Source: Rhizobium sp. BT03 (GTDB lineage Bacteria; Pseudomonadota; Alphaproteobacteria; Rhizobiales; Rhizobiaceae). Taken from it: 64,000 nucleotides of DNA. Position numbers and translations under genes: made by a program. Below are positions 28,249-50,515 of this stretch, piece by piece. The notes beneath the pieces are model-generated. The model worked only from the letters and a program-made list of their open reading frames with translations. It had not been told where the DNA came from and ran no database searches. The DNA is taken from contig NZ_CP125640.1 in NCBI RefSeq assembly GCF_030053155.1, positions 3,632,001 through 3,696,000 of the forward strand, read 5' to 3'. Each line of letters opens with the position of its first letter. The first letter of the stretch is position 1.

Positions 28249-28252
28249 CGTC

Positions 28253-31262: not shown

Positions 31263-31281
31263 GTCGAAGGAGGAGTTTGAT

Positions 31282-31635
31282 ATGCAGGGACTTTTCTTCG
31301 AAAGCGATAACGGCGCCCGGGTGGTAATCCGTGCGCTGGTCGTGCTGATTGGCTTCTGGACGGCCTGGCGGGCCGGCAAGGCGGTTGCCGATGGCTGGAA
31401 CAACTATCCGCTGGTGGTCGTCTATACCTTCCTGCTGGCCTGGGCGATGCAGTTTCTGCATCATGCCCTGTTCAATGGGCCGATGCTCAGTGCTCTCTAT
31501 TACGGCATTGATTTCGTGACGCTGCTGGTCTTCGCGACGGCTGGCTTCCGCCATCGCCGCACCAATCAGATGGTCAACAACTATTACTGGCTGTACGAAA
31601 AAACTTCCGCGTTTTCGTGGAAGGACAAACATTGA
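31282..31635 (+). CDS. Small three-helix membrane protein in the liv operon
   Basis: A 117-residue protein with three membrane segments (about 13-36, 43-64 and 72-92) and a basic C-terminus (RHRRTNQMVNNYYWLYEKT). It follows livF by 19 bp with GAAGGAGG upstream and precedes livK, so it is probably cotranscribed with the transporter. I think it belongs to the DUF6867-type family found in rhizobial liv clusters, but that number is from memory. An accessory role in the transporter is inference. Confidence 0.78.
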   Translation: MQGLFFESDNGARVVIRALVVLIGFWTAWRAGKAVADGWNNYPLVVVYTFLLAWAMQFLHHALFNGPMLSALYYGIDFVTLLVFATAGFRHRRTNQMVNNYYWLYEKTSAFSWKDKH

Positions 31636-31755
31636 CAGTCCGTTGAAACTAGGCATGAATTGCCTTCAGAGTGGAACAGCTTTCCTGGCGCAGTCAATGG
31701 TGGGTAATGCGTTGGGCCTTGGACCGGAACCCGCCCAAAAATTGGGAGTAACAAT

Positions 31756-33008: not shown

Positions 33009-33926
33009 TCACATTTCGTGCAGCACATGCGTGGCTTTTACCGCGGCCGAGGCGCGGTTCTCGACGCCGAGCTTCACGTAGATCTGTTCGAGGTGCTTGT
33101 TCACGGTGCGCGCCGACAGTCCCAATATTTCGCCGATGTCGCGGTTGGCCTTGCCTTTGGCGATCCAGAGCAGCACTTCGGATTCGCGCTGGGTCAGCGA
33201 AAAGCGCTGGCGCAGCATCTCGTCGTCGCTGCGCTGGTTGGCGGCGGTGAGACGGAAGAGATATTCGTCGGGGCCGATCGCGCCGAGGAAGGCGAGCTGC
33301 AGCGCCGCCTGGCCGGCATGGGCGATCGAGATGATGCCGTCGCGCACGGCGGCTGCGCGGTCGCGCATCCAGCCGGCGATATGGCGGACGACGATTTCCA
33401 TGCCGTCGTCGCTGCCCATGGCGGCATTGACCAGCCGTGTCGCCTGCGGAGTCGACCAGTGGATCGCGCCGTCGCCTTTGACCGCCAGCAGATGGCGGCC
33501 GGCGGCGTCGAGCGCCACGCGGGCGCTCTGCGCCGAGCGGGCGTTGCGCAGATGGACACGGATGCGGGCGCGCAATTCGTCGATATTGATCGGCTTGGCG
33601 AGATAGTCGACACCGCCGGATTCCAGCGCGTGGACGACATGCTCGGTCTCCGTCAGACCGGTCATGAAGATGACGGGCACTTGCGCCACCGCCGCATTCG
33701 CCTTCAGCCGGCGGCAGGTCTCGAAGCCATCCATGACGGGCATGACGGCGTCGAGCAGGATGAGATCGGGCGTGATGCGCTCTACGATGCCAAGGGCTGC
33801 GGTGCCCGAGGTGGCAATCAGCACGGAGAAGCCGGATTGCTCGAGCGCGTCGGTCAGGAAGCCCAGCGCTTCGGGCGAGTCGTCGACAAGCAGAACGATG
33901 TCGCGGGGGAGGGCCGGCTCAGCCAA
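33009..33926 (-). CDS. LuxR/NarL-type response regulator, partner of the NCS1-like hybrid kinase
   Basis: A 305-residue regulator. The receiver domain (residues ~8-125) has the acidic patch VLLVDDSPEALGF, acceptor Asp in LILLDAVMPVMDG and lysine in DYLAKPINIDEL. A central linker of about 110 residues is of unknown fold. The C-terminal LuxR helix-turn-helix includes LTQRESEVLLWIAKGKANRD and LSARTVNKHLEQIYVKLGV. Its start overlaps the end of the kinase gene by 8 bp, so the two are a translationally coupled pair. Proximity to the urt-ure cluster suggests control of nitrogen-compound uptake, but this is inference. Confidence 0.9.
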   Translation of the reverse strand: MAEPALPRDIVLLVDDSPEALGFLTDALEQSGFSVLIATSGTAALGIVERITPDLILLDAVMPVMDGFETCRRLKANAAVAQVPVIFMTGLTETEHVVHALESGGVDYLAKPINIDELRARIRVHLRNARSAQSARVALDAAGRHLLAVKGDGAIHWSTPQATRLVNAAMGSDDGMEIVVRHIAGWMRDRAAAVRDGIISIAHAGQAALQLAFLGAIGPDEYLFRLTAANQRSDDEMLRQRFSLTQRESEVLLWIAKGKANRDIGEILGLSARTVNKHLEQIYVKLGVENRASAAVKATHVLHEM

Positions 33927-36900
33927 TGGATTCCACCTTTTCGTCGAAGTCGTGCAGGAAAGTCATGAAGCCGGCGAGATCGAAGGCGGCGACATAGGCG
34001 CGAAGTTCTTCGGTGAATGGCTGATTTGCCTCCACCTTGGCAAGGTCCGAAAGCTTGGCTTCGATGCCTCTGATATAGCCGATCTCGCCGAGCCGCAGCA
34101 ATTCCTGCACATGGGCAGCACCCGGGCTCCGCATCGGCGCTTCGGTTTTGACAGGAATAGCGGGCGAGGCGTCGGCATAGACCCATTTCAGCCCAAGGTG
34201 CAAAGCGAGCTTGTCGCGCAGCTGACGGATGTCCACCGGCTTGCCGATCGCATCGTTGTGGCTGTCGTCGCTGTCGCCGAGAACGGCGGCATCGCCGATA
34301 TTGGCCGAAAGCATCACTATAGGCGCTGTCTGGCCGGCCTCGCGCAGGCGCGAGACCAGCTGCCAGCCGCTCATGCCGGGCATCAGGATATCGACGAGGA
34401 AAAGATCAGGCATGATGCCCTCGATCAGCGTCAGGCATTCGCCGCCGCCTGCTGCCGTCAGAACGATGAAATCGAGAGGCGCCAGGATTTCGCGCATCAT
34501 CTCGCGATGGTCTTCGTTATCGTCGACGACGACCACCGTGCGGCGCGGGCCGTCATAACCCACGATGCGCTTTTCTTGCGGCGCGGCGGCCACGGCGCGC
34601 ATGACGGCCGACAGCATGAGGCGGACGCGGAACGTCGAGCCCTCGTCCTTGACGCTCGAAACCGCAATCTCGCCGCCGAGCGTGTTGGTCAGAAGCCGGG
34701 TGATGGTAAGGCCGAGGCCAAGACCCGGCATCGGCCTCACGCTGTCGGCCTCGCCGCGCTGGAAGGGTTCGTAGATGCGCGTTAGATCCTTTTCAGCGAT
34801 GCCGCGGCCGGTATCGGCAACGGTGAAGGTCGCGACCTGGCTGCGATAGCCGACATCGAAGGTGACGCTGCCCTCGTCGGTGAATTTGATGGCGTTGGAG
34901 AGCAGGTTGACGAGGATCTGGCGCAGCCGCTTTTCATCGGTGCGGACAAATTGCGGCAAGGCCGGCGAGCGCTCGTGCAGGAAGGCAAGCCCCTTCGCCT
35001 GCGCCTGCGGGCGGAACATGTCGACGATCTGGTCGAGGAAATCCTGGATATTGATCTCATTGGAATAGACCTGCAGGCGGCCGGCTTCGATCTTGGAAAT
35101 ATCGAGCAGGCCGTCGATCAGCCCGGAGAGGTGTTCGGCGCTGCGGCGGATGACCTTGATCGAGGATTGGCGCGGCGCCGGGATGGTCTCGTCGCGCTCG
35201 AGGATCTGGGCATAACCGAGCACGGCGTTGAGCGGCGTGCGCAACTCGTGGCTGAGGCCGACGACGTAGCGGCTCTTGGCGCGGTTGGCGGCTTCGGCGG
35301 TCTCCTTGGCGTTCTGCAGGGCGGTGTCGGTCTTCTTGTGGGCGGCGATCTCCTTGAGCAGCAGCGTGTTCTGGCGCGAGGATTCCTCCTCGGCGACGAC
35401 GCGGCTGTCATGGGCGAGCACGTAGAACCAGCAGACGATGCCTGATATTACCGAGAAGACGAAGAAGACGATGAGGATGGTGCGGTTGACCACCTCCGCC
35501 GTCTCGGGTGAGGCGGCGGCGACCTGGTGGGCGATCATCGCCAGGATCGCGCCGATAGCGGTCAACGCCAGCGCGACGGCGATGCCATAGCGGCCGAGGC
35601 GCGTCGTCAGCTTGCTGAGAACGGTTTCCGGCAGCAGCACCTTGGCGACGGTGCCGACCTGCGCGTTGAAACGGGCGGCGGGCTTGCACATGTCGTGGCA
35701 ACGGCTATCGAGCGAGCAGCAGAGCGAGCAGATCGGCGCGGCATAGGCCGGGCACCAGGCCATGTCCTCCGGCTCGAAGGGATGTTCGCAGACGGAGCAG
35801 GTGATGCTCGTCAGGTTCTTCCAGCTGTGGCGCGGCTTGCGGGCGAGATAGAACTTGCCTTTCGTCGCTGAGGCAAGTGCCGGCGAGGCGATCAGCGCGA
35901 TGACGAGGGTGATATAGGGAGCGAGCGAGGCGGCGGTCGCGCCGAAGGCGCCGAAATGGGCAATCAGCGAGACCGTCGCCGACAGCGTCATGGCGCCGAG
36001 GCCGACCGGATTGATGTCGTAGAGATGGGCGCGCTTGAACTCGATGCCGGGCGGAGCGAGGCCCAGCGGCTTGTTGATGAAGAGATCGGCGGAGATCGTG
36101 CAGAGCCAGGCCATGGCGATGATCGAGAAGATGCCGAGCGTCTCCTCCAGCAGCCGGTAGATGCCGAGCTCCATCAACAGCAGGGCGATCGCGACGTTGA
36201 AGACCAGCCAGATGACGCGGCCGGGATGGCTGTGGGTCAGCCGCGAGAAAAAGTTCGACCAGGCGAGTGAGCCGGCATAGGCATTCATCACGTTGATCTT
36301 CAGCTGCGAGACGACGACGAAGGCGGCCATCAATAGCAGCGCGGCATTCTGCCAGGGCACCATATAGCCGAAAGCGGTCAGATACATCTGCGCCGGATCG
36401 GCGGCACGATCGACCGGCACGCCCGAGGCCAGGGTCAGCACGACGAGGAAGGAGCCGGCCAGCAGCTTTGGCGCGCCGATGACGACCCAGCCGGGTCCGG
36501 CAAGGAAGACGGCCAGGCGATGGCGCCACTTGCGCCGCGGCTCCGGCGGCAGGAAGCGCAGGAAGTCGGCCTGCTCGCCGATCTGCGACATCAGCGCCAG
36601 AATGACGGCCGAGGCGGCGCCGAACTGCACGAGATCGAATTCGGCGACGGTGCCGGGCGGGCCCGAGGCATGGCGGATGCCGGCAAAGGCGCGCCAGAGA
36701 TCGAACTTTTCCCAATCCATGAAGGCGATGAAAATGAAGGGCAGGATGTTCAGCACGATCCAGAAGGGCTGGGTGATCAGCTGGAACTTGCTGATCAGCC
36801 GCACGCCGTGCGTGACCAGCGGGATCACCATGACGGCGCTGAGGATGTAGCCGATCCAGAGCGGAATGCCGAGGGTGAGCTCCAGCGCCCCGGACATGAT

Positions 36901-37305
36901 CGAGGCCTCGATCGCAAACAGCATGAAGGTGAAGCTCGCATAGATCAGCGAGGTGATGGTTGAGCCGATATAGCCGAAGCCGGCGCCGCGGGTCAGAAGG
37001 TCGATATCGACGCCGTGGCGGATGGCATAGCGGCTGATCGGCAGGCCGATCGCCAGCATGGCGATCGAAGCGACGATAATGGCATAGAAGGCGTTGGTGG
37101 TGCCGTAGGAGAGGGTGATGGCGCCGCCGATCGCCTCGAGCGCCAGGAAGGAGATCGCGCCGATCGCCGTCTGCGCGATACGCTGCGAGGAGAAATGGCG
37201 GGCGCTCTTTGCGGTGAAGCGCAGCGCATAATCTTCCAGCGTCTGGTTGGCGACCCAGCGATTATATTCGCGTCTTACCGGAATGATGCGTTGGCGCGCT
37301 GCCAT
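33919..37305 (-). CDS. NCS1 permease-like / Cys-cluster hybrid sensor histidine kinase
   Basis: A 1128-residue fusion. Residues ~15-480 resemble an NCS1 (cytosine/uracil/allantoin type) permease with about twelve membrane segments (for example AIGAISFLALEAIGGAITLS). A cysteine-rich stretch follows at ~499-537: CSVCEHPFEPEDMAWCPAYA then CSLCCSLDSRCHDMC. Two more membrane segments (~570-640) lead to a coiled coil, the H-box GLSHELRTPLNAVLGYAQIL (~683), an ATPase domain with ILVNLLSNAIKFTDEG, and a receiver domain (~917-1035, VVVDDNEDHREMM and LVDILMPGMSG). The architecture parallels CbrA-type symporter-kinases but with a different transporter family. The Cys cluster could bind a metal. A nucleobase- or urea-like ligand is inference. 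Confidence 0.88.
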   Translation of the reverse strand: MAARQRIIPVRREYNRWVANQTLEDYALRFTAKSARHFSSQRIAQTAIGAISFLALEAIGGAITLSYGTTNAFYAIIVASIAMLAIGLPISRYAIRHGVDIDLLTRGAGFGYIGSTITSLIYASFTFMLFAIEASIMSGALELTLGIPLWIGYILSAVMVIPLVTHGVRLISKFQLITQPFWIVLNILPFIFIAFMDWEKFDLWRAFAGIRHASGPPGTVAEFDLVQFGAASAVILALMSQIGEQADFLRFLPPEPRRKWRHRLAVFLAGPGWVVIGAPKLLAGSFLVVLTLASGVPVDRAADPAQMYLTAFGYMVPWQNAALLLMAAFVVVSQLKINVMNAYAGSLAWSNFFSRLTHSHPGRVIWLVFNVAIALLLMELGIYRLLEETLGIFSIIAMAWLCTISADLFINKPLGLAPPGIEFKRAHLYDINPVGLGAMTLSATVSLIAHFGAFGATAASLAPYITLVIALIASPALASATKGKFYLARKPRHSWKNLTSITCSVCEHPFEPEDMAWCPAYAAPICSLCCSLDSRCHDMCKPAARFNAQVGTVAKVLLPETVLSKLTTRLGRYGIAVALALTAIGAILAMIAHQVAAASPETAEVVNRTILIVFFVFSVISGIVCWFYVLAHDSRVVAEEESSRQNTLLLKEIAAHKKTDTALQNAKETAEAANRAKSRYVVGLSHELRTPLNAVLGYAQILERDETIPAPRQSSIKVIRRSAEHLSGLIDGLLDISKIEAGRLQVYSNEINIQDFLDQIVDMFRPQAQAKGLAFLHERSPALPQFVRTDEKRLRQILVNLLSNAIKFTDEGSVTFDVGYRSQVATFTVADTGRGIAEKDLTRIYEPFQRGEADSVRPMPGLGLGLTITRLLTNTLGGEIAVSSVKDEGSTFRVRLMLSAVMRAVAAAPQEKRIVGYDGPRRTVVVVDDNEDHREMMREILAPLDFIVLTAAGGGECLTLIEGIMPDLFLVDILMPGMSGWQLVSRLREAGQTAPIVMLSANIGDAAVLGDSDDSHNDAIGKPVDIRQLRDKLALHLGLKWVYADASPAIPVKTEAPMRSPGAAHVQELLRLGEIGYIRGIEAKLSDLAKVEANQPFTEELRAYVAAFDLAGFMTFLHDFDEKVESIG

Positions 37306-37483
37306 GTCTTCCTTCCGGCATTCCGGTTGGGCCTATCGTCTCGAAACAGTTTTGGCGGGATGCGTGAGAAAGGCAAGGGCGGAGCACTGGCAGATTCACG
37401 GAACCGCCATATTTTTGAAGCCGGTCTGTCACACTGGGCCTCTAACTCTCCCGCCGTTCCCTCAACCATTTCAGGTATCACCC

Positions 37484-39435: not shown

Positions 39436-39575
39436 CCTTCCGCTGTGTCCGTTTGCCCCCTGCGCCTACGTCATTTTGCGTATGTGTTTTTGCGATGCAG
39501 CACCCGATAGTCCCTTCGGCAACAGTTAAATTCCGTTTCCGGCCTGTTGCGGAACAAGAAGAGGGGCTCAACCAG

Positions 39576-40868
39576 ATGAATCTCAGATCCACGATCACCG
39601 GCGCTGCGCTCGGTGCCGTCATGGCGGCATCGGCCGCTTTCCACGGCGCGGCTGCCGCCGACGACACGATCAAAGTCGGCGTATTGCATTCGCTTTCCGG
39701 CACGATGGCGATTTCCGAAACCACGCTGAAAGACGCCATGCTGATGCTCATCGACGAGCAGAACAAGAAGGGCGGCCTTCTCGGCAAGAAGCTCGAGGCC
39801 GTCGTCGTCGATCCGGCTTCCGACTGGCCGCTGTTTGCCGAAAAGGCTCGCGAGCTGATCCAGAAGGACAAGGTTGCCGCCGTCTTCGGTTGCTGGACGT
39901 CCTCGTCGCGCAAGTCCGTTCTGCCGGTTTTCGAAGAGCTGAATTCGCTGCTCTTCTACCCCGTGCAGTATGAGGGCGAAGAATCCTCGCGCAACATCTT
40001 CTACACCGGTGCTGCTCCGAACCAGCAGGCAATTCCGGCCGTCGACTACCTGATGGAAAAAGAAGGCGTCAAGCGCTTCGTGCTCGAAGGTACAGACTAC
40101 GTCTATCCGCGCACGACCAACAAGATTCTCGAGGCATACCTGATTTCGAAGGGTATTCCGAAAGAAGACATCATGACCAACTACACGCCGTTCGGCTTCT
40201 CCGACTGGCAGACCGAAGTTGCCAAGATCAAGGAATTCGGTTCGGCCGGCAAGAAGACCGCCGTCGTCTCGACGATCAACGGCGACGCCAACGTTCCGTT
40301 CTACAAGGAACTGGGCAATAAGGGCATCAAGGCAACCGACATTCCTGTAGTCGCCTTCTCGGTCGGTGAAGAAGAGCTTGCCGGTCTCGACACCAAGCCG
40401 CTTGTCGGCCATCTCGCTGCCTGGAACTATTTCGAGTCGGTCGAAAGCCCGGCCAACAAGAAGTTCATCAAGGACTGGCACGCTTACACCAAGAACGACA
40501 AGCGCGTGACGAACGACCCGATGGAAGCTGCGTATATCGGCTTCAATGCATGGGTTAAGGCCGTCCAGGCTGCCGGCACGACCGATACCGACAAGGTTCT
40601 CGACTCCATCATCGGCGTCAGTGTTCCAAACCTCTCCGGCGGTTATGCGACCGTCATGCCGAACCACCACATCACCAAGCCCGTGCTGATCGGTGAAATC
40701 CAGGCCAACGGCCAGTTTGAAATCGTCCAGCAGACGCCCGCCGTCGTCGGCGACGAATGGTCCGATTACCTGCCTGATTCCAAGGACCTGATCTCCGATT
40801 GGCGTAAGCCGATGTCCTGCGGCAACTTCAACGTTGCCACCGGCAAGTGCGGCGGCAAGGGTTCCTGA
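39576..40868 (+). CDS. urtA: Urea ABC transporter substrate-binding protein UrtA
   Basis: A 430-residue periplasmic binding protein for urea. The signal peptide runs to AAFHGAAAADD. The mature protein starts DTIKVGVLHSLSGTMAISET and contains family sequences FGCWTSSSRKSVLPVFEE and LLFYPVQYEGEESSRNIFYT that distinguish UrtA from LivK. ATG 39576 follows GAAGAGGGG. It heads the urt operon, upstream of urtB by 115 bp with an intervening hairpin that probably stabilises urtA mRNA. Expression under nitrogen limitation is expected from the family, but no clear sigma-54 site is visible. Confidence 0.96.
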   Translation: MNLRSTITGAALGAVMAASAAFHGAAAADDTIKVGVLHSLSGTMAISETTLKDAMLMLIDEQNKKGGLLGKKLEAVVVDPASDWPLFAEKARELIQKDKVAAVFGCWTSSSRKSVLPVFEELNSLLFYPVQYEGEESSRNIFYTGAAPNQQAIPAVDYLMEKEGVKRFVLEGTDYVYPRTTNKILEAYLISKGIPKEDIMTNYTPFGFSDWQTEVAKIKEFGSAGKKTAVVSTINGDANVPFYKELGNKGIKATDIPVVAFSVGEEELAGLDTKPLVGHLAAWNYFESVESPANKKFIKDWHAYTKNDKRVTNDPMEAAYIGFNAWVKAVQAAGTTDTDKVLDSIIGVSVPNLSGGYATVMPNHHITKPVLIGEIQANGQFEIVQQTPAVVGDEWSDYLPDSKDLISDWRKPMSCGNFNVATGKCGGKGS

Positions 40869-40983: not shown

Positions 40984-42636
40984 ATGTATCGCGCTATAAA
41001 AATTTTCCTCATCACGCTCTGCCTCACATTTTCGGGGCTGGCATTCTCGGGCCTCGCATTTACGGGCTTGGCAACATCGAGCGAAGTTCGGGCAGAGAAT
41101 GATATCCACCTGCTTATCGATGCGCTCGGCGTCGGCGACTTCCCGGAACGCGAGGCGGCCATCAAGGCGCTGGTCGCCTCCAAGGACCCGCATGTCAGCC
41201 AGATCCTGCAACAGCTGAGCGACGGCCTTCTCTACGTCAATTCCGATGGCGGCCCGGTGCTCCTCCAGGGCGGCACCGATGACGAACCGACCTATTCCGA
41301 TCCGATCAGCGGCGAAGCCGCTGCCGATGTCGATCCTGACATGATGACCAAGGTCAAGATCAACAATGCACTTCGCGGCGTCATCAGCGCCGCCACCAGC
41401 CAGCTGACGCTGATGAGCCCGGATCGTTCGGCGCGGCTTGCCGCGGCACAGGGACTGCTGAAAGATGCCGATCCCGCCAATCTCGACCTGCTGAACGCGG
41501 CGCTTGCGGCTGAAAAGGACGCCGAGATCAAGAATACGATGGAAGCGGCGCGCGCGGTGCTGCTGCTGAAGACGGATGCGAGCGTCGAAGACAAGAAAGC
41601 TGCGATCGATACGATCGCGGCTCGCGGCAATCGTGATGCTCTGACCATTCTCACGACCACACTCGAAACCGCGCCTGATGACCTCAAGCCGGCGATCCAG
41701 GCAGATATCAGCACCATCAATCGCAGCCTGGCGCTGTGGGATATCGTCCAGAACGTCTGGTACGGATTGTCGCTCGGCTCGGTGCTGCTGCTTGCGGCGA
41801 TCGGCCTTGCCATCACCTTCGGCGTCATGGGCGTCATCAACATGGCACATGGCGAAATGGTGATGATCGGCGCCTATACGACCTACGTGGTGCAGGAAAC
41901 GATTACCTCGGCCTATCCCTCGCTTGCCGATTATTCGCTGGCCTTTGCGGTCCCGGCCGCCTTCGTCTTCACCGGCCTCGTCGGCCTCGTCATCGAACGA
42001 TCAGTCATCCGCTATCTCTACGGCCGGCCGCTCGAAACGCTGCTCGCCACCTGGGGCGTGTCGCTGATCCTCCAGCAGGCCGTGCGCAGCATCTTCGGCC
42101 CGACCAACCGTGAGGTCCGCAATCCGACCTGGATGTCCGGCGTCTTCGATCTCGGCGGGCTCTCCATCACCTGGAACCGGCTATGGATCATCGTCTTTTC
42201 GATGGTTGTCTTCGTGACACTGCTCCTGCTGCTCAAGCGCTCAGCCTTCGGCCTGCAGATGCGCGCCGTCACGCAGAACCGCCGCATGGCATCGTCGATG
42301 GGCATCCGCACCGGCTGGGTCGACGCCTTCACCTTCGCGCTCGGTTCGGGCATTGCCGGTATTGCCGGCGTGGCGCTCAGTCAGATCGACAACGTCTCGC
42401 CGAATCTCGGCCAATCCTACATCATCGACAGCTTCATGGTCGTCGTCTTCGGCGGTGTCGGCAACCTCTGGGGCACGCTGGTCGGCGCGCTCTCGCTCGG
42501 CGTCGTCAACAAATTCCTCGAGCCCTTCGCCGGCGCCGTGCTCGGCAAGATCCTGGTGCTCGTCCTCATCATTCTCTTTATTCAGAAGCGTCCGCGCGGG
42601 CTCTTCGCACTCAAAGGAAGGGCGGTGGAAGCATGA
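40984..42636 (+). CDS. urtB: Urea ABC transporter permease UrtB
   Basis: A 550-residue permease. Unlike LivH it has a signal peptide followed by a ~220-residue periplasmic helical domain (residues ~35-250), a layout usual for proteobacterial UrtB. The permease core starts near YGLSLGSVLLLAAIGLAITF and includes ALGSGIAGIAGVALSQIDNV. The signal peptide contains a threefold repeat of F-[ST]-GLA. Its stop overlaps the urtC start (ATGA). Confidence 0.95.
   Translation: MYRAIKIFLITLCLTFSGLAFSGLAFTGLATSSEVRAENDIHLLIDALGVGDFPEREAAIKALVASKDPHVSQILQQLSDGLLYVNSDGGPVLLQGGTDDEPTYSDPISGEAAADVDPDMMTKVKINNALRGVISAATSQLTLMSPDRSARLAAAQGLLKDADPANLDLLNAALAAEKDAEIKNTMEAARAVLLLKTDASVEDKKAAIDTIAARGNRDALTILTTTLETAPDDLKPAIQADISTINRSLALWDIVQNVWYGLSLGSVLLLAAIGLAITFGVMGVINMAHGEMVMIGAYTTYVVQETITSAYPSLADYSLAFAVPAAFVFTGLVGLVIERSVIRYLYGRPLETLLATWGVSLILQQAVRSIFGPTNREVRNPTWMSGVFDLGGLSITWNRLWIIVFSMVVFVTLLLLLKRSAFGLQMRAVTQNRRMASSMGIRTGWVDAFTFALGSGIAGIAGVALSQIDNVSPNLGQSYIIDSFMVVVFGGVGNLWGTLVGALSLGVVNKFLEPFAGAVLGKILVLVLIILFIQKRPRGLFALKGRAVEA
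41029..41073 (+). repeat. Three tandem 15-bp units inside the urtB signal peptide
   Basis: Three consecutive in-frame 15-bp units encode FSGLA-FSGLA-FTGLA. The copies differ mostly at third codon positions, so the duplication is not very recent. It lengthens the hydrophobic core of the signal peptide. Confidence 0.8.
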
Positions 42637-43796
42637 TAACGGCCTTCCTTCTCCGGTCTCTCGATCGCAGGATCTCGATCGCCGTCGCCTTGTTGCTGGC
42701 GGCCGCCATTCTGGTGCCGGCGCTGAACCTTGCGACCGGACCCACCCATCCGCTGCATATCCCCACCTATATCATGGCGCTGTTCGGCAAGTATCTGACC
42801 TATGCGCTGCTGGCGCTGGCGCTCGATCTCGTCTGGGGTTTCTGCGGCATCCTCTCGCTCGGCCATGGCGCCTTCTTCGCCCTCGGCGGCTATGCGATGG
42901 GCATGTATCTGATGCGTCAGATCGGCTCGCGCGGCGTCTATGGCGACCCGGTGCTGCCGGATTTCATGGTGTTCCTGAATTGGAAGGAACTGCCCTGGTT
43001 CTGGTACGGTTTCGATCAGTTCTGGTTCGCGGCGCTGATGGTGCTTGCCGTGCCCGGCCTGCTCGCCTTCGTCTTCGGCTGGTTCGCCTTCCGCAGCAGA
43101 GTCAACGGCGTCTATCTCTCGATCATCACCCAGGCGATGACCTATGCGCTGCTGCTCGCCTTCTTCCGCAACGACATGGGTTTCGGCGGCAATAACGGCA
43201 TGACCGACTTCAAGGACATTCTCGGCTTCAATGTCCAGGCTGACGGCACGCGTGCGGCCCTCTTTGCGGCAACCGCGGTCTTCCTGGGGCTATCGCTGAT
43301 TGTTGCGTCGGCGATCGTGCGCTCGAAGTTCGGCAAAGTGCTGGTCGGCGTACGCGATGCCGAAAGCCGCACGCGCTTTCTCGGCTACCGCGTCGAGCAC
43401 TTCAAGCTCTTTACCTTCGTCGTCTCGGCGATGATGGCGGGCATTGCCGGCGCGCTCTACGTGCCGCAGGTCGGCATCATTAATCCCGGCGAATTCGCTC
43501 CTGCCAACTCGATCGAAGTCGTCATCTGGACGGCGGTCGGCGGGCGGGCGACGCTGATCGGGCCGATTATCGGCGCGATCCTCGTCAATGGCGGCAAGAC
43601 GATCTTCACCGGTCTCTTCCCGGAGTTCTGGCTATTTGCGCTCGGCGGTCTCTTCGTCGCCGTCACGCTGTTTCTGCCGAAGGGCGTGGTCGGCACGATC
43701 GCCCACTATCTCGGCAAACGGAAAACCGCTTCCGCTGTGATGCCGCCGGCGGCGCAGGAAGACGGCATCGAGCCGAAAATCCAGGCAGCGGAGTGA
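42633..43796 (+). CDS. urtC: Urea ABC transporter permease UrtC
   Basis: A 387-residue LivM-type permease with about nine or ten membrane segments. Conserved stretches are ALDLVWGFCGILSLGHGAFF, FRNDMGFGGNNGMTDFKDIL (the GGNNGLTDF motif is diagnostic of UrtC) and the coupling loop VRDAESRTRFLGYRVEHFKL. ATG 42633 overlaps the urtB stop, and its own stop overlaps the urtD GTG. Confidence 0.95.
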   Translation: MITAFLLRSLDRRISIAVALLLAAAILVPALNLATGPTHPLHIPTYIMALFGKYLTYALLALALDLVWGFCGILSLGHGAFFALGGYAMGMYLMRQIGSRGVYGDPVLPDFMVFLNWKELPWFWYGFDQFWFAALMVLAVPGLLAFVFGWFAFRSRVNGVYLSIITQAMTYALLLAFFRNDMGFGGNNGMTDFKDILGFNVQADGTRAALFAATAVFLGLSLIVASAIVRSKFGKVLVGVRDAESRTRFLGYRVEHFKLFTFVVSAMMAGIAGALYVPQVGIINPGEFAPANSIEVVIWTAVGGRATLIGPIIGAILVNGGKTIFTGLFPEFWLFALGGLFVAVTLFLPKGVVGTIAHYLGKRKTASAVMPPAAQEDGIEPKIQAAE

Positions 43797-44557
43797 GCAC
43801 CATGATTCCCGACGTCAAACCCAACAGCGTGCTTTATCTCAATGGCGTTTCGGTTTCCTTCGACGGCTTCAAGGCATTGAATTCGCTGTCGATCGTCATC
43901 GAACCCGGCGAACTGCGCGCCATCATCGGCCCGAACGGCGCCGGCAAGACGACGATGATGGACATCATCACCGGCAAGACCAGGCCCGATGAGGGCGAAG
44001 TGTTCTTCAACGGCACTGTTGATCTCACCAAGAAGGACGAGGCCGATATCGCTGAGCTCGGCATCGGCCGCAAATTCCAGAAGCCGACGGTCTTCGAAAG
44101 CCACACGGTGTGGGACAATCTGGAGCTGGCGCTGAACCGCCGCCGCGGCGTGTTCTCTACGCTGTTCTATCGGCTTTCGGGCGAGGACAGAGCGCGTATC
44201 GAGGAAATCCTCGACACGGTGCGGCTGACGCACCGCCGTAACGAACTGGCCGCCAACCTGTCGCATGGGCAGAAGCAGTGGCTGGAGATCGGCATGCTGC
44301 TGGCGCAGGAGCCGAAGCTCTTGCTCGTCGACGAACCGGTGGCCGGGATGACCGATGCGGAAACGGCGGAGACGGCGATCCTGCTCAAGGACATCGCCAG
44401 GACCCGCTCGGTCGTCGTCGTCGAGCACGACATGGGCTTCATCCGCGACCTCGGCGTCAAGGTGACATGCCTGGCGGAAGGCTCGGTGCTGGCTGAGGGA
44501 TCGATCGATTTCGTCAGCTCGGATCCGAAGGTGATCGAGAACTATCTGGGGCGGTGA
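43793..44557 (+). CDS. urtD: Urea ABC transporter ATPase UrtD
   Basis: A 254-residue ATPase. Walker A GPNGAGKTTMMD, signature LSHGQKQWLEIGML (the SHGQKQWLEI form is typical of UrtD) and Walker B LLLVDEPVAGMT are intact. Translation may start at the GTG overlapping the urtC stop or at the ATG three codons later (43802). The protein pairs with UrtE to energise urea import. Confidence 0.95.
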   Translation: MSTMIPDVKPNSVLYLNGVSVSFDGFKALNSLSIVIEPGELRAIIGPNGAGKTTMMDIITGKTRPDEGEVFFNGTVDLTKKDEADIAELGIGRKFQKPTVFESHTVWDNLELALNRRRGVFSTLFYRLSGEDRARIEEILDTVRLTHRRNELAANLSHGQKQWLEIGMLLAQEPKLLLVDEPVAGMTDAETAETAILLKDIARTRSVVVVEHDMGFIRDLGVKVTCLAEGSVLAEGSIDFVSSDPKVIENYLGR

Positions 44558-44633
44558 TCCATGCAACTTAGAGGCTTGAACCTGACAAAAGAAAACGCTC
44601 TAAAACGGGCGGGTTTTATTGTGGGGTTTCATC

Positions 44634-45152
44634 ATGGCTTTTCTCGGTATTCTGGTCGCGGCGATCAGCGGCGCGGTCATCTGGTATTGGCGTTTTAAGA
44701 TGGTGCGTGAGGCGGGAAGCGAGATCATCGATTCCGTCGAGCGCATGCGGGGCACTTACAGGCGCGGAAAGCGCCGCAAGCAGGCGGAGGCGGCGCCGCT
44801 CGCCTCGATCGCCGATCCGGCGATTGCGGCGGTGGCTTTCTTCTTCTGCCTTGCCAAGGAGAAGCCGATGTATCTCGACGCGGCCAAGGATGTCATTCGC
44901 AGCCGCATGAAGGGCATCATCCGGCCTGGCGATATGGACGAGGTGCTGGTTTTCGGCGAATGGGCGTCCAAGAACGTCACCAGTGCCGAAGACCCGATCC
45001 GCCGGTTCCGGGATCTCTGGTTAAAGGCGCTCGACATGCAGGAGCGCCGGCAACTGATTGATATTGCCGAGGACGTGGCCGCGGCCGGCGGCGAAAGAAC
45101 GAAAGAACAGGAGTACGCCCTGCTGATGCTGAGGCGTACGCTGATGAACTGA
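44634..45152 (+). CDS. Unknown membrane-anchored protein between urtD and urtE
   Basis: A 172-residue protein with one N-terminal membrane segment (AFLGILVAAISGAVIWYWRF), a basic linker (RRGKRRKQ) and a helical cytoplasmic domain. The end of that domain (DMQERRQLIDIAEDVAAAGG then ERTKEQEYALLMLRR) has the look of a TerB/DjlA-type helical bundle, but this is a guess. It ends 6 bp before urtE, so it is in the same transcript and interrupts the usual urtDE order. Confidence 0.78.
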   Translation: MAFLGILVAAISGAVIWYWRFKMVREAGSEIIDSVERMRGTYRRGKRRKQAEAAPLASIADPAIAAVAFFFCLAKEKPMYLDAAKDVIRSRMKGIIRPGDMDEVLVFGEWASKNVTSAEDPIRRFRDLWLKALDMQERRQLIDIAEDVAAAGGERTKEQEYALLMLRRTLMN

Positions 45153-45158
45153 TGGGGA

Positions 45159-45866
45159 ATGGGTGAACGGATGCTGACAGTCGAAAACGCAAATCTGCAT
45201 TATGGCGCGGCGCAGGCGCTGCGCGGCGTCTCCGTCAAGGCGGAGATGGGCAAGATTACCTGCGTGCTGGGGCGCAACGGCGTCGGCAAGAGTTCGCTTC
45301 TGCGTGCGGTGACCGGCCAGCATCCGCTGTCGGCCGGCACCGTCATCTTCAACGATACCAGGCTGAACGGCCTGCCGCCCTTTGCCCGCGCCAAACAGGG
45401 CATCGGCTATGTGCCGCAGGGGCGGGAAATTTTCCCGCTGCTGACGGTCAAGGAAAATCTCGAAACCGGCTTTGCTCCGCTCGGCCGCCGCGACCGCAAC
45501 ATCCCCGACGATATCTTCAGTCTTTTCCCGGTGCTCAAGTCGATGCTGTCACGCCGCGGCGGCGATCTTTCCGGCGGGCAGCAGCAGCAGCTGGCGATCG
45601 GCCGGGCGATGGTGACGCGGCCGAGGATTCTCGTGCTCGATGAGCCGACCGAAGGCATTCAGCCGTCGATCATCAAGGATATCGGCCGGGCAATCCGTTA
45701 CCTGCGTGATTCCACCGGCATGGCGATCCTGCTCGTCGAACAATATCTCGATTTCTGCCGGGAGCTTGCCGACTACGTCTACATCATGGATCGCGGCGAA
45801 ATCGTCCATGAAGGCCTTGCCGAGACGCTGGATACGCCGGAGGCCCGCCGTCATTTGACCGTCTGA
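45159..45866 (+). CDS. urtE: Urea ABC transporter ATPase UrtE
   Basis: A 235-residue ATPase. Walker [14 protein letters not shown], signature [15 protein letters not shown] and Walker [14 protein letters not shown] are intact, and the [15 protein letters not shown] stretch is typical of UrtE. ATG 45159 is six bases after the preceding stop; an internal ATG at 45171 would give the usual [12 protein letters not shown] start. It closes the transporter set; ureD follows after about 150 bp. Confidence 0.95.
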
Positions 45867-46018
45867 CCGGCAAATGCCGTATTTTTCGGCAACTGGCGGA
45901 GCTTCTTTCAAATCTGCCGGGTCCGTTGCGGCTATCCTTGGACGGCATGGGAATTGCTTGCTTTCCGTTACCCGCGCGATTGAAATGGAAAACCGGTGGC
46001 GCGACCGAGAGGCACGAT

Positions 46019-46840
46019 ATGGTGATTGCGGCGGCAGGCACGAGACCGCAAAGAGCGGAAGGACGCGGGCATCTGGCGGCAAAGCTGCTCGACGGCCGCA
46101 CGCGTCTGCGTGAGCTCTATCAGGAAGGGGCGGCGAAGATCCGGCTGCCGGATACGTTCGATGCTTCGATGGAAGCCGTCATCATCAACACTGCAGGCGG
46201 GCTGACCGGCGGCGACCGGATGGACTGGAGCATCGTTGCCGGTGCCGGCACGAAGATCGACGTCACCACCCAGGCTTGCGAAAAGATCTACAAGGCATCG
46301 GCCGGCACGGCCGAGGTGACGACCAGCATCAAGGTCGGAGCCCAAGCCCGCGTCGACTGGCTGCCGCAGGAAACGATCCTTTTCGATCGCGCCGCACTTT
46401 TTCGCCGGCTGGATGTCGATCTAGATGAGAGCGCCGAGTTTCTGGCCGTCGAAGCCATACTGCTCGGCCGCAAGGCGATGGGCGAGATGGTGGAGACCGG
46501 GCTTTTCCGCGACCGCTGGCGCATCCGCCGCTCCGGCCAGTTGATCCACGCCGAGGAGCTCAGGCTTTCAGAAGGGGTGGCGGCGCTGGCGGCACGTCAG
46601 GCGGTACTCGGGGGACAGGTGGCCTTTGCGACGCTGCTTTATGCCGGGCCGCTTTCGGAAGCCTATCTCGGCAAGGTGCGACCGCTCGTCGAAGGCTCGA
46701 TGGGCGGTGCGAGCGCCTGGGACGGCAAGCTCGTCGTCCGCCTTGCGGCAGCCGACGGCTTTTCGCTCAGAAAAATCCTGATCCCGGTCATTTCCGCCTT
46801 GCGCAATGGTGCGCCCGTGCCGAAAGTCTGGAATCTATAA
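46019..46840 (+). CDS. ureD: Urease accessory protein UreD
   Basis: A 273-residue chaperone that binds apo-urease and, with UreF and UreG, helps load nickel. Family motifs are visible: [32 protein letters not shown] and [19 protein letters not shown]. The ATG at 46019 ([12 protein letters not shown]) is preferred over upstream starts because GAGAGG precedes it and the length matches rhizobial UreD. It begins the urease operon proper, 20 bp before ureA. Confidence 0.95.
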
Positions 46841-46860
46841 GTTCAATAAGCAGGTAGATG

Positions 46861-47163
46861 ATGAACCTCACTCCGAGAGAAAAAGACAAGCTGCTGATAT
46901 CCATGGCGGCGATGGTGGCGCGGCGGCGGCTGGAGCGCGGCGTCAAGCTGAACTACCCGGAAGCGATTGCGCTGATCAGCGATTTCGTCGTCGAAGGCGC
47001 CCGTGATGGCCGCCCGGTCGCCGAGCTGATGGAGGCCGGCGCCCATGTGATCGGCCGCGACCAGGTGATGGAAGGCGTTGCCGAGATGATCCACGACGTG
47101 CAGGTGGAGGCGACCTTCCCGGATGGAACCAAGCTCGTCACCGTTCACGAACCGATCCGGTAA
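46861..47163 (+). CDS. ureA: Urease gamma subunit UreA
   Basis: A 100-residue structural subunit of urease. The sequence is typical throughout: [40 protein letters not shown] and [20 protein letters not shown]. Two adjacent ATG codons (46858, 46861) are possible; the second gives the standard N-terminus. In rhizobia the gamma and beta subunits are separate genes, as here, with one small gene inserted between them. Confidence 0.97.
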
Positions 47164-47173
47164 GGAGACGGAT

Positions 47174-47425
47174 ATGCTCGAGCTCAGGCCCAATTGCGAA
47201 TGCTGCGACAAGGATCTGCCGCCGGAAAGCAGCGAGGCACGGATCTGCACCTATGAATGCACCTTCTGCGCCGATTGCGTCGATGGCGTGCTCAAGGGCG
47301 TCTGCCCGAATTGCGGCGGCAATCTTGTTGCCAGACCCATCCGGCCGGCGGCGATGCTCGCCAAACATCCGGCGTCGACGAAGCGTGTGCTGAAGGCCGA
47401 GGGCTGCGCGCCCAGGGCGGCTTAA
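47174..47425 (+). CDS. DUF1272 small Cys-rich protein in the urease operon
   Basis: An 83-residue protein with a probable zinc-binding fold. Cysteines are arranged as CECCDKDLPP, then ICTYECTFCADC and CPNCGG, the DUF1272 pattern. It lies 10 bp after ureA with an AAGGAGA ribosome site, so it is cotranscribed. No function is established for the family. A metal-related role beside urease is tempting but unproven. Confidence 0.87.
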   Translation: MLELRPNCECCDKDLPPESSEARICTYECTFCADCVDGVLKGVCPNCGGNLVARPIRPAAMLAKHPASTKRVLKAEGCAPRAA

Positions 47426-47434
47426 GGAGATAAG

Positions 47435-47740
47435 ATGATTCCGGGTGAGATCATTGCCGCCAGCGGCGACATCGAACTGAATGCCGGCGCGCCGACGGTG
47501 ACGCTGGAGGTTTCCAATACCGGCGACCGGCCGGTGCAGGTCGGCAGCCACTATCATTTCGCCGAGACCAATGCCGGGCTCTCCTTCGACCGGGCGGCGG
47601 CGCATGGCAAGCGGCTGGATATTCCGGCGGGAACGGCGGTGCGCTTCGAGCCGGGACAGACGCGCTCGGTGACGCTGATCCCGCTTTCCGGCAAGCGCGA
47701 AGTCTATGGCTTCCGTCAGCTGGTGATGGGCAAGCTTTAA
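47435..47740 (+). CDS. ureB: Urease beta subunit UreB
   Basis: A 101-residue structural subunit. Typical stretches are [40 protein letters not shown] and [28 protein letters not shown] precedes the ATG. It lies 9 bp after the DUF1272 gene. Confidence 0.97.
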
Positions 47741-47751
47741 CGGAGGGATGC

Positions 47752-48159
47752 ATGCGTTTGAATATCTGCCTCATCGGGGCGGCGATGCTGCTGATGGCCG
47801 ATGGCGGTTCCGCTCAGGATATCGATTGCCAGAATCCCAAGACGCAATCGGATATGACTTCTTGCGAAGCGGCGCGCCACGAGACCGCCGACAAGGCGTT
47901 GAATGCGCAATACAAGAAGACCCGTGCCGCTCTTGCCGCGGTCGACAAGGATCTCGACGGCGACATGAAGGGCGCGGAGCAGGCGCTGGTCAAGGCGCAG
48001 CGCGCCTGGATCGATTATCGTGACGCCGAGTGCGACGCCTTCGGTTTCCAGGCCCGCGGCGGCACGATGGAGCCGATGCGGGTTGCCGGCTGTCTCGCCA
48101 ATATCACCGACAAACGCACGAAAGAGCTGAAAGAACTCGAAGACACGATGAGCAATTAA
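47752..48159 (+). CDS. LprI-like (DUF1311) secreted protein in the urease operon
   Basis: A 135-residue exported protein. A signal peptide (NICLIGAAMLLMADGGSAQ) is followed by a helical domain with the LprI/DUF1311 cysteine pattern: CQNPKTQSDMTSCEAARHE, KAQRAWIDYRDAECDAFG and VAGCLANITDKRTKELKEL. Family members include lysozyme inhibitors, though most are uncharacterised. It sits between ureB and the GT29-like gene with 11-bp and 1-bp gaps, clearly in the operon. Confidence 0.87.
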   Translation: MRLNICLIGAAMLLMADGGSAQDIDCQNPKTQSDMTSCEAARHETADKALNAQYKKTRAALAAVDKDLDGDMKGAEQALVKAQRAWIDYRDAECDAFGFQARGGTMEPMRVAGCLANITDKRTKELKELEDTMSN

Positions 48160-48160
48160 G

Positions 48161-48799
48161 GTGATCAAGAAGATCGTGATCGTCGGCAATGGCGAGGTCG
48201 CAGAGGCGGAAGCAGGCGTGATCGATGCCGCCGATTTCGTCATCCGCTTCAACGATTGCCGTTCCTACGGGACCGGCGGCACCCGGACGGATGCCGTTGC
48301 GGTCTGCAATACCGGCCGGCCGGCAAAAGCGATGCTCGGCGCGCCGCAATGGCGTGCCCATCCCGGCGTCGTTTCGGCCCGCGAAATCTGGAGCGTGCGC
48401 GACCCGGAAAAATTCGCCGCGATGCGGGCGCCGCTTGCCGTCTCGCATCCCGATCTCGACGATTTCTGCGACGATTATACGGACGCGTTCGCTGCCTTCT
48501 GCGCGGAGACCGGTAAGACGCATGTCGTCATCGGCAAGGCGGTCCACGAAGCGGTTGACGCCTCGCTTTCGGCCTTTGCGCCGGCGCCCTATGTGGTGCC
48601 GAGCAGCGGCACGATCGTCATCGCCGAAGTGCTGGACAAATATGCCGAGGCCGAGGTGATGCTGGCTGGCTTCGGTCACGCCGGCTGGGAATGGCATCCG
48701 TTTGCGGCCGAAAGGCAGCTTGTCGATACCTATGTTGCCGCCGGCCGCCTCTCGCGGCTTAGCGGAAAAATGTTTTTCTCTTCCTCCCATGGAGCTTGA
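48161..48799 (+). CDS. Urease-operon accessory protein with GT29-like N-terminus
   Basis: A 212-residue protein of the kind annotated in rhizobia as urease operon accessory protein. The N-terminus (KKIVIVGNGEVAEAEAGVID then DFVIRFNDCRSYGTGG) resembles the sialyltransferase (GT29) L-motif, which has an NG...G..ID..D.VIRFN pattern. Downstream, VPSSGTIVIAEVLDKY and GFGHAGWEWHPFAAERQL may match the short motifs of the same fold. It starts at GTG 48161, immediately after the LprI-like stop, and ureC starts 3 bp after it. Its biochemical role is unknown. Confidence 0.8.
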   Translation: MIKKIVIVGNGEVAEAEAGVIDAADFVIRFNDCRSYGTGGTRTDAVAVCNTGRPAKAMLGAPQWRAHPGVVSAREIWSVRDPEKFAAMRAPLAVSHPDLDDFCDDYTDAFAAFCAETGKTHVVIGKAVHEAVDASLSAFAPAPYVVPSSGTIVIAEVLDKYAEAEVMLAGFGHAGWEWHPFAAERQLVDTYVAAGRLSRLSGKMFFSSSHGA

Positions 48800-48802
48800 T
48801 GA

Positions 48803-50515
48803 ATGCCCTACAAGATCTCCCGCGCCGCCTATGCCGGCATGTTCGGACCGACGACCGGCGACAAGGTGCGCCTTGCCGATACGGAACTCTTCATCGAGAT
48901 CGAGAAGGATTTCACCACCTATGGCGAGGAGGTGAAGTTCGGCGGCGGCAAGGTGATCCGTGACGGCATGGGCCAGAGCCAGGTGACACGGGCGGACGGC
49001 GCGGTCGATACCGTCATCACCAATGCGGTGATCGTCGATCACTCCGGCATCTACAAGGCCGATATCGGGCTTAAGGACGGTCGCATCGTTGCGATCGGCA
49101 AGGCGGGCAATCCCGATATGCAGCCCGGCGTCAATATCATCGTCGGCCCGGGCACGGAGGCGATCGCCGCCGAAGGCAAGATTATCACTGCCGGCGGCAT
49201 GGACAGCCATATCCACTTCATCGCGCCGCAGCAGATCGAGGAAGCGCTGATGTCGGGCATGACCTGCATGCTCGGCGGCGGCACGGGGCCGGCGCATGGC
49301 ACGCTTGCCACCACCTGCACGCCCGGGCCCTGGCATATCGCGCGGATGATCGAAGCGGCCGATGCCTTCCCGATGAACCTCGCCTTTGCCGGCAAGGGCA
49401 ATGCCTCGCTGCCGGGCGCCTTGACCGAAATGGTGCTGGCCGGCGCCACCTCGCTGAAGCTGCACGAGGATTGGGGCACGACGCCTGGCGCCATCGACTG
49501 CTGCCTGTCGGTCGCCGACGAATACGACGTGCAGGTGATGATCCACACCGATACGCTGAACGAAAGCGGCTTCGTCGAGGATACGATCGGCGCCATCAAG
49601 GGCCGCACCATCCATGCCTTCCACACCGAAGGGGCGGGCGGCGGGCACGCGCCCGATATCATCAAGATCTGCGGGCAGCCGAACGTCATTCCCTCGTCCA
49701 CCAATCCGACCCGACCCTATACGGTCAATACGATTGCCGAGCATCTCGACATGCTGATGGTCTGCCATCACCTGTCGCCGTCGATCCCCGAGGATATCGC
49801 CTTTGCCGAAAGCCGCATCCGCAAGGAGACGATCGCCGCTGAAGATATCCTGCACGATATCGGCGCCTTCTCGATCATCTCATCCGACAGCCAGGCCATG
49901 GGCCGTGTCGGCGAGGTGGCGATCCGCACCTGGCAGACGGCCGACAAGATGAAGCGCCAGCGCGGCCGGCTGAAGGAGGAAAAGGGCGACAACGACAATT
50001 TCCGCGTCCGCCGCTATATCGCCAAATATACGATCAACCCGGCGATCGCCCATGGGCTCAGCCACGAGATCGGCTCTGTCGAAGTCGGCAAGCGCGCCGA
50101 CCTCGTGCTCTGGAACCCGGCCTTCTTCGGGGTGAAGCCCGACATGGTGCTGCTCGGCGGCTCGATCGCCGCCGCGCCGATGGGCGATCCGAACGCCTCG
50201 ATCCCAACGCCGCAGCCGGTGCATTACCGGCCGATGTTCGCCTCCTACGGCAAGAGCCTCACCAATTCCTCCGTCACCTTCGTCAGCCAGGCCTCGCTCG
50301 ATGCCGGCCTGAAGGGCCGGCTCGGGGTCGCCAAGCAGCTCGTGGCGGTGAAGAATACCCGCGGCGGCATCTCCAAGGCGTCGATGATCCACAACGACCT
50401 GACACCGGAGATCGAGGTCGATCCGGAGACCTACGAGGTCAGGGCGAACGGCGAATTGCTGACCTGCGAGCCGGCGACGGTGCTGCCGATGGCGCAGCGC
50501 TATTTCCTGTTTTAG
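48803..50515 (+). CDS. ureC: Urease alpha (catalytic) subunit UreC
   Basis: A 570-residue nickel enzyme subunit hydrolysing urea to ammonia and carbamate. The active-site set is complete: [10 protein letters not shown] (HxH), [14 protein letters not shown] with the carbamylated Lys, [26 protein letters not shown], the mobile-flap [19 protein letters not shown] with Cys and His, and [12 protein letters not shown] with the metal-binding Asp. The length is standard. It lies 3 bp after the accessory gene and 14 bp before the DUF2459 gene. Confidence 0.98.

Follow-up and report, generated by a model that had tools for sequence, protein, structure and literature searches.

Which signal does a histidine kinase read when its N-terminal half resembles a membrane transporter, and which genes does it control? 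The question is raised by a locus of Rhizobium sp. BT03 (RefSeq assembly GCF_030053155.1), within a 64,000-nt stretch of contig NZ_CP125640.1 (positions 3,632,001 to 3,696,000) that we analyzed as a whole and refer to as the window. Here a single protein joins a permease-like domain, a cysteine-rich module and a hybrid histidine kinase, close to genes for urea uptake and urease. Judging from sequence comparison, we consider it likely that this kinase is a transporter-derived ('transceptor-like') sensor of urea and short-chain amides (formamide, acetamide) that activates the genes for their uptake and hydrolysis. We found no published study of an NCS1 transporter-kinase in the open-licence literature. 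Annotators have already recorded the fusion, in JGI product names that pair 'histidine kinase' with 'purine-cytosine permease-like protein', but it seems not to have been studied.

Homologues of the kinase

Residues 1-650 have at least 8000 homologous proteins at E<=0.001, of which the best 120 were examined. Within the class, 20 of 289 genomes have a kinase-type match, and in a phylum-wide sample 38 of 299 genomes do (own genome included; weaker matches to ordinary permeases and one fragment are excluded from the counts). Apart from the own genome and a 50-residue fragment in G503, these matches occupy 57 places. We fetched 47 of them and left out 10 near relatives. One locus, L182, has a kinase truncated by a contig end and was excluded from the alignments; the remaining 46 loci plus the window form the set of 47 loci. 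Alignments A1, A2 and A3 hold 41, 34 and 35 of the 47.

The open reading frame of the window's kinase is intact (coordinates of all features are given in Table 1). HisKA, HATPase_c and Response_reg all score above their Pfam cut-offs, which upholds the kinase core and receiver proposed in the original prediction, and the phosphorylatable residues are in place (H686 in SHELRTPLN, D972 in VDILMPG), both being invariant in A3. With these three domains and both residues, the C-terminal half is a hybrid histidine kinase. The coupling to a LuxR-type regulator also holds: the TTG start of the regulator and the kinase stop share 8 nt, and a relative of the regulator is present in 45 of the 47 loci.

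Family assignment of the sensor domain

Direct searches with Pfam and NCBIfam left the sensor domain unnamed. The NCS1 model (PF02133) gave no match in the kinase itself and none at E<=1 among 41 homologous N-termini, and the sodium-solute symporter (SSS) model (PF00474) gave no Pfam match in the same sequences. Searched against the PDB sequences, a profile of the sensor domain retrieved nothing at E<=1, and a profile of the related stand-alone permeases retrieved a chance match to LolA alone (E 0.38).

The assignment comes through bridging sequences. Among ten stand-alone permeases scanned that were found at low identity, six match PF02133, five of them above the cut-off. For alignment A4, which holds 10 such permeases, nine of the ten were scanned; five match and four exceed the cut-off. 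By hhalign, the sensor profile aligns with A4 at 99.8% (E 8.6e-30, 429 columns), and A4 in turn reaches CodB (7qoa, E 2.5e-33) and Mhp1 (2jln, E 2.7e-17). Against 17 open reading frames from SSS loci the same profile reaches 6.3% over 124 columns; these controls were chosen by length and composition from PF00474-matching loci and were not individually checked. SSS membership was rejected on this score and the lack of a PF00474 match. A closer link is P0122, a stand-alone Klebsiella permease that shares 41% identity over 528 residues with kinase residues 20-533 and passes PF02133 (38.1 bits, cut-off 23.5). Among the permeases with a cysteine-bearing tail described below, two of 15 match PF02133.

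By this bridge of ordinary NCS1 permeases, homology to accepted NCS1 members extends over the full transporter length, and the N-terminal ~480 residues are assigned to an NCS1-type permease. Hydropathy segments run across residues 50-475, some of them merged or split. The earlier choice of NCS1 over SSS therefore stands, and the N-terminus is not an ordinary seven-transmembrane or MASE-type sensor; as a profile search, however, NCS1 membership is reached by bridging and not by a direct PF02133 match.

An invariant eight-cysteine module

Between permease and kinase lies a compact module with exactly eight cysteines (503, 506, 518, 526, 529, 530, 536 and 540), forming one CxxC, one CxxCC and three single positions. 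The original prediction had described eight or more, with two CxxC-type pairs and a CxxCC group at residues ~499-537; the CxxCC group and the number eight hold, whereas the second pair does not and the span is 503-540. Its proposal of a cysteine site at this place is borne out: across a diverse set of 47 full-length homologues, none of the eight varies. The other three cysteines of the kinase (402, 625 and 957) are kept in 2, 2 and 28 of the 47. A profile of the module found 42 places in 38 of 299 genomes, all inside these kinases, and the 38 genomes are the kinase-bearing ones. A single weak place (E 1e-3) lies outside the kinases; the scoring covered, for most genomes, no more than 19 first-look candidates.

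The module carries conserved paired cysteines, putative ligands of the zinc-ribbon or RING type, and it is probably zinc-binding, perhaps with two metal sites. Pfam matches are sub-threshold (FYVE, E 0.015 in one of 34 members; Prok-RING_1, E 0.17 in three), and the best PDB matches are zinc fingers aligned around the first CxxC alone. Assignment to a named zinc-finger family was rejected for want of a match above threshold.

Half of the module recurs in stand-alone permeases. Their C-terminal tail carries C503, C506, C526 and C529 (CxxC...ICSLC), and the CxxC..CSLC tail is present in 120 of 121 free permeases, query included, taken as the best listed of 4777 matches. C518, C530, C536 and C540 are not in the tail pattern. 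Since half of it is the tail of free permeases, the site does not belong to the kinase alone: the earlier view of it as an addition to the kinase is right about its place between transporter and kinase, but only half of it is confined to the fusion. In a single tree (midpoint rooting for drawing), kinases and free permeases separate together from other NCS1 permeases with support 100/99; the kinases form one group (89/55) and the free permeases another (50/46). We infer that the module grew from the transporter's tail and that C518, C530, C536 and C540 came with the kinase fusion. Alternatively, the free permeases lost half of the module, and the tree does not decide between the two.

A feature missing from the original prediction follows the module. 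Alignment-averaged hydropathy predicts two helices (~575-590 and ~610-626) between the cysteine module and the kinase core; a Pfam match to DUF6526 at residues 582-656 is sub-threshold.

The module also appears, under an arcB gene, in two large Acinetobacter 'phage' records, where it probably represents host or plasmid DNA.

Urea and amide genes accompany the kinase

Across the 47 loci, the neighbours include urtA in 37, the formamidase gene fmdA in 27, the aliphatic amidase gene amiE in nine and ureC in seven, and in 43 loci at least one urt or amide/urea hydrolase gene is nearby. The usual order is fmdB-fmdA-urtEDCBA, divergent from the kinase and regulator genes, an arrangement that is also annotated on Methylobacterium and Paracoccus plasmids. 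Genome content agrees: 29 of 30 FmdA-positive genomes have the kinase, as compared with 38 of 299 overall (Fisher p 2.7e-31, inflated by shared ancestry). The exceptions are G387, which has FmdA without the kinase, and nine genomes that have the kinase but no FmdA. UrtA is above cut-off in 92 of the 299 genomes, so urea uptake genes are far commoner than the kinase. On the Klebsiella plasmid L272 (NZ_CP089326.1), kinase and regulator stand with urtABCDE and a gene annotated as formamidase; by tblastn this 335-codon gene matches aliphatic amidase, not FmdA.

In the window, urtA scores 557.5 bits against TIGR03407 (cut-off 492.75). Its start was read from the sequence, and the start in the open-reading-frame list (39426) is too early. 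The urtD and urtE frames were assigned by position match to the annotated urtD and urtE of L272. Farther downstream, ureC matches urease alpha (TIGR01792) with 990 bits, and a ureD-like frame at 45926-46840 is named from position and clustering only.

The stand-alone permeases keep the same company. We examined eight of the 18 listed free-permease records (H41-H58). Among seven annotated contexts, urease, fmdA or amiE adjoins the permease in six (Table 1). In an unannotated Acinetobacter baumannii record, the kinase and regulator genes point away from the permease gene, and overlapping operator sites occupy the gap. The Methylovirgula context has no annotated urt gene and only a partial UrtA-like match; a one-mismatch site precedes the permease, and exact sites precede fmdA/kinase and amiE. 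A search of 21 genomes with the free permease as query returned only kinases, one distant permease and one weak partial match. Labels such as cytosine permease, allantoin permease or hypothetical protein, when they stand beside urease, formamidase or amidase genes, are probable misannotations. The nitrogen-starvation genes of Mycobacterium smegmatis include, in the accessible text of PMC4222082, the adjacently numbered msmeg_3402 ('cytosine permease') and msmeg_3403 ('formamidase').

The original prediction had offered urea, a nucleobase or allantoin as the signal. Because the conserved neighbours are genes for urea transporter, formamidase, aliphatic amidase and urease, and six of seven free-permease contexts are alike, urea is retained, short-chain amides are added, and a nucleobase or allantoin is not favoured.

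A palindrome upstream of urtA

A palindrome of the form TACGYN6RCGTA, TACGTCATTTTGCGTA, precedes urtA and is the window's only exact match. The own genome of 6.9 Mb contains five exact sites and 36 matches to a reversed control pattern. Within 400 bp upstream of the kinase, an exact site is found at 27 of the 47 loci (31 with one mismatch), and within 1.5 kb upstream of urtA at 26 of 35 urtA loci. Because the motif was defined on these same upstream sequences, the other sets matter more. Among the best 80 of 466 matching stretches, all rhizobial, an exact site lies 90-98 bp before urtA in 80 of 80. In six kinase loci added later (L272-L275, L279 and L282), it lies between the kinase and its divergent neighbour in all six.

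As controls, the site occurs in none of 20 urtA promoters of kinase-free genomes, even with one mismatch allowed, and no exact site occurs in six free-permease stretches without a kinase, three of which have a one-mismatch match elsewhere. For urtA promoters that are unlinked to the kinase in kinase-bearing genomes, two of 20 have an exact site and a third has one with one mismatch. L143, L145 and L146 have an exact site upstream of the kinase despite missing urt, fmd, amidase and urease neighbours in the fetched stretch.

Together with the conserved gene order, the palindrome supports, by comparison only, the earlier proposal that the kinase may control the adjacent urt genes. The parallel proposal for the liv genes was rejected on synteny. 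The liv-type operon of the window (27307-32880; two permeases, two ATPases and a binding protein) converges on the regulator gene, and livH neighbours occur in just two of the 47 loci, the window and one relative.

The four other exact sites of the own genome are away from pathway genes and were not counted as targets. Three are next to or within genes that resemble those for a transglutaminase, a flagellin and an acyl-CoA dehydrogenase, and one is in an unassigned C4 region (the transglutaminase was scanned; the flagellin-like and acyl-CoA-dehydrogenase-like names were read from translations). The one by the transglutaminase-like gene is a second strong palindrome, TACGTCATTCGACGTA, at C1:418168-418183, about 300 bp upstream of that gene. 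In two other loci, exact operators (L148:9220 and L151:11605) stand near a porin gene next to urtA or the kinase. The L148 porin is ExtI-like, below the model cut-off, and the L151 porin belongs to the same cluster; both bring to mind the Methylophilus fmd cluster, which has an amide porin.

Proposed mechanism

We propose that the NCS1-type domain, which shares a clade with the free permeases found next to urease, formamidase and amidase genes, binds an amide from outside or in transit. The resulting conformational change would pass through the cytoplasmic eight-cysteine module and the two-helix hairpin to the kinase core. H686 and D972, in domains that are plainly present, would then bring about phosphorylation of the LuxR regulator, whose translation is coupled to that of the kinase. 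The regulator may bind TACGYN6RCGTA, a site recognized by comparison, upstream of urtA or, in other species, in the stretch between divergent genes of which one is fmdA, amiE or a stand-alone permease gene, and would thereby activate uptake and hydrolysis. In this Rhizobium the target would be urtABCDE, probably with the downstream urease genes. A related case is the Methylophilus fmd cluster, which is induced by formamide and urea according to the accessible part of PMC10781810.

Several points weigh against this proposal. The counts upstream of the kinase and of urtA were made in the very sequences that first yielded the motif. The rhizobial set and the six later loci escape this circularity, but the 80 rhizobial loci are closely related to one another and to the window. 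Nine of the 35 urtA loci have no exact site in the 1.5 kb upstream, and 16 of the 47 loci, the window included, have no site, even with one mismatch, in the 400 bp upstream of the kinase. L143, L145 and L146 (one genus) as well as L150 lack urt or amide/urea hydrolase neighbours in the stretch fetched; for the first three, the genome probably has the target at another place. Close relatives are frequent among the 47 loci, so the counts overstate independence, and transfer of a whole cassette would keep the neighbours together whatever the sensor detects. Lastly, urea, formamide and acetamide are not distinguishable as the ligand.

Alternative explanations

Could the protein be a true bifunctional transceptor, in which urea or amides still pass through the NCS1 domain and the transport cycle itself drives the kinase? 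We regard this as possible, if somewhat unlikely. Conservation is strong in the permease domain (mean column identity of 65% across the 41 sequences of A1; the entire protein reaches 50% across the 35 of A3), and many residues that are invariant in free permeases are also kept in the sensor, including, in the predicted core, the polar residues T126, E133, Q241, E244, Q245, D247, K336, N338 and N341, which are invariant among 14 sensors and 14 permeases. There is also a precedent, as the SSS kinase CbrA is described in the accessible text of PMC7918813 as transporting histidine. However, the acidic residue of the first helix is class-specific. Free permeases have Asp56 in 119 of the 119 in which the motif was found (121 examined), mostly followed by Phe57, whereas sensors have Leu, Cys or Met at position 56 and Glu57 in 47 of 47 (Leu56-Glu57 in our kinase). 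In addition, 37 of 47 loci encode a urt-type ATP-binding cassette (ABC) transporter nearby, and Ks-Amt5 offers the opposite precedent, with transport lost on conversion to a sensor (PMC5764959, accessible part). In our main reading, for which the shared polar residues also speak, the sensor would retain a urea/amide permease's binding pocket but have an altered coupling residue.

It is improbable, in our assessment, that the cysteine module senses an internal state (redox, zinc or ammonium) and that the permease is a membrane scaffold only. The strict retention of eight cysteines in sensors, four of which (518, 530, 536 and 540) are not in the free permeases' tail, would fit this explanation, but the other half of the module is found in kinase-free permeases, the two best-conserved 25-residue windows of the kinase both fall within the permease domain, and the neighbouring genes are substrate-specific.

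We give little credence to the idea that kinase and regulator are merely co-located with the cassette and that the palindrome belongs to another urt/fmd regulator. Four of the five exact sites in the own genome lie away from pathway genes, which would fit this idea, but the site is missing from all 20 urtA promoters of kinase-free genomes, present in all six independent kinase loci, and retained upstream of the kinase in the three loci where urt is missing. Least credible of all is sensing of a classic NCS1 substrate (nucleobase, hydantoin or allantoin) by the permease domain, with such compounds feeding into urea: it has in its favour the family membership, the database names 'allantoin permease' and 'cytosine permease' of free relatives and a xanthine dehydrogenase cluster ~10 kb from the kinase in one Paracoccus record, but no purine or pyrimidine catabolic gene stands beside the permease in the seven annotated contexts, and neither formamidase nor aliphatic amidase is known to act on nucleobases, hydantoin or allantoin.

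We retain the urea and short-chain amide sensor as the most likely reading. If it is correct, the induction of fmd and urt operons by urea and formamide gains a sensor and an operator, a large set of nucleobase-named permeases would be reassigned, and the ~41% identical sensor/permease pair would allow the conversion from transport to signalling to be dissected residue by residue. A broader reading, on which we are evenly divided, is that the widespread NCS1 clade marked by the CxxC...ICSLC tail, with members at present labelled cytosine or allantoin permeases, consists of urea/short-chain-amide transporters. One lineage would have been fused to a hybrid kinase, its four-cysteine tail becoming an eight-cysteine, two-metal joint, and would act through the conserved palindrome as the missing sensor by which fmd/urt/amidase/urease cassettes are induced across Pseudomonadota.

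Relation to known systems

The putative positive regulator of the Methylophilus fmd cluster is reportedly FmdB. That cluster, fmdCABDEF, likewise combines formamidase, a porin and binding-protein-dependent uptake of amides and urea; one putative positive regulator is described and a sensor kinase is not mentioned in the accessible part of the source (PMC10781810).

Transporter-kinases have so far been known for the SSS and Amt families. The SLC5/STAC kinases CbrA, CrbS/MxtR and RpuS likewise have a transporter-like N-terminus fused to a kinase, and CrbS is a hybrid kinase. LuxR-family regulators, as in our system, serve in the form of CrbR and in both SLC5/STAC systems of NGR234, and CrbR similarly acts via an imperfect palindrome upstream of assimilation genes (all from the accessible parts of PMC7918813, PMC9100948 and PMC5715377). 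Our system differs in that the transporter is NCS1 and not SSS, an eight-cysteine module and two predicted helices lie between transporter and kinase, the palindrome is unlike the ACTU sequences given in those parts, and the link is to urea and amides in place of acetate, histidine and pyruvate. The main text of the CbrA structure paper (PMC13022988) does not mention NCS1, nucleobase or purine. Ks-Amt5 is also a nitrogen-compound transporter domain turned into a kinase sensor, but it belongs to another transporter family, has no PAS, HAMP or STAC linker described, and has a response regulator reported as not identified (PMC5764959, in the text accessible).

Among transporters, the NCS1 permeases CodB (7qoa) and Mhp1 (2jln) share profile homology over ~430 columns through the bridge, whereas the kinase is too divergent for Pfam, has the C-terminal cysteine module and stands in urea/amide contexts. 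The P0122-family permeases ('cytosine', 'allantoin' or 'purine-cytosine permease') are closer, with 41% identity (P0122), half of the cysteine module and urea/amide contexts; they differ in having no kinase, four module cysteines as opposed to eight, and Asp56.

Distribution and further observations

The 466 matching stretches come from named species genomes. Labels of the best 80 are Rhizobium, Agrobacterium, Ferirhizobium and, for 13, Rhizobiales only. Plasmid records matching the sensor domain number 521, of which 340 are from Klebsiella and 304 are predicted conjugative; those listed are mostly kinases, with some free permeases or fragments. The sensor domain is also present on pSymB of several Sinorhizobium meliloti strains.

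Table 1. Features of the window and related features in other records (window coordinates unless a locus or accession is given).
Feature	Position	Strand	Basis or content
NCS1 permease / 8-Cys / hybrid histidine kinase, 1128 residues	33919..37305	-	Open reading frame; Pfam HisKA, HATPase_c, Response_reg; homologues
NCS1-type permease domain, residues 17-482	35860..37257	-	hhalign; identity to stand-alone permease
Eight-cysteine module, residues 503-540	35686..35799	-	Cysteine invariance in homologues; module profile
Predicted two-helix membrane hairpin, residues 575-626	35428..35583	-	Alignment-averaged hydropathy
HisKA, H686, residues 677-742	35080..35277	-	Pfam PF00512; invariant H686
HATPase_c, residues 789-898	34612..34941	-	Pfam PF02518
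Receiver domain, D972, residues 924-1033	34207..34536	-	Pfam PF00072; invariant D972
Response regulator, receiver + LuxR-type helix-turn-helix, 305 residues	33009..33926	-	Pfam PF00072, PF00196
Predicted operator TACGTCATTTTGCGTA	39467..39482	.	93 bp before urtA ATG
urtA, urea ABC transporter substrate-binding protein, predicted target	39576..40868	+	TIGR03407
urtB-urtE, predicted target operon	40984..45866	+	BPD_transp_2 in first two open reading frames
Urease region	45926..50515	+	Clustering; ureC at 48803-50515
Cysteine-tailed NCS1 permeases	L271:8944-10551; L276:7959-9566; L278:7959-9602; L280:7941-9617; L281:7959-9647		
Cysteine module in 'phage' records	CAKLQH020000001.1 263034-263207; CAKLQF020000001.1 263044-263217		
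Klebsiella free-permease context			ureDABCEG (ureF not listed)
Acinetobacter ursingii free-permease context			ureEFG-J-DABC
Moraxella osloensis free-permease context			fmdA-fmdB
Methylovirgula free-permease context			fmdBA divergent from kinase-regulator-permease, with amidase
Arthrobacter free-permease context			permease-amidase
Tsukamurella free-permease context			permease, fmdA and zinc-ribbon gene close by
Streptomyces free-permease context			nothing relevant

The neighbours scanned in L143 and L150 (a P-loop/APH-like protein, AHSA1, GNAT and MCP) gave no clue. Between the kinase and urtA of the window, at 37247-39388, lies a gene for a PAP2-phosphatase protein with a PATR (autotransporter-like) repeat, which has no match of at least 200 bits in the other 47 loci compared.

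Two loci encode short variants of the kinase, of 885-894 residues, without the receiver and without a LuxR regulator (L155:8859-11516 and L175:8877-11561). Nearby lie fmdA and genes for an OmpR-type regulator and a receiver/kinase protein, identified by scanning in L175 and by clustering in L155, which suggests a rewired version of the same sensor.

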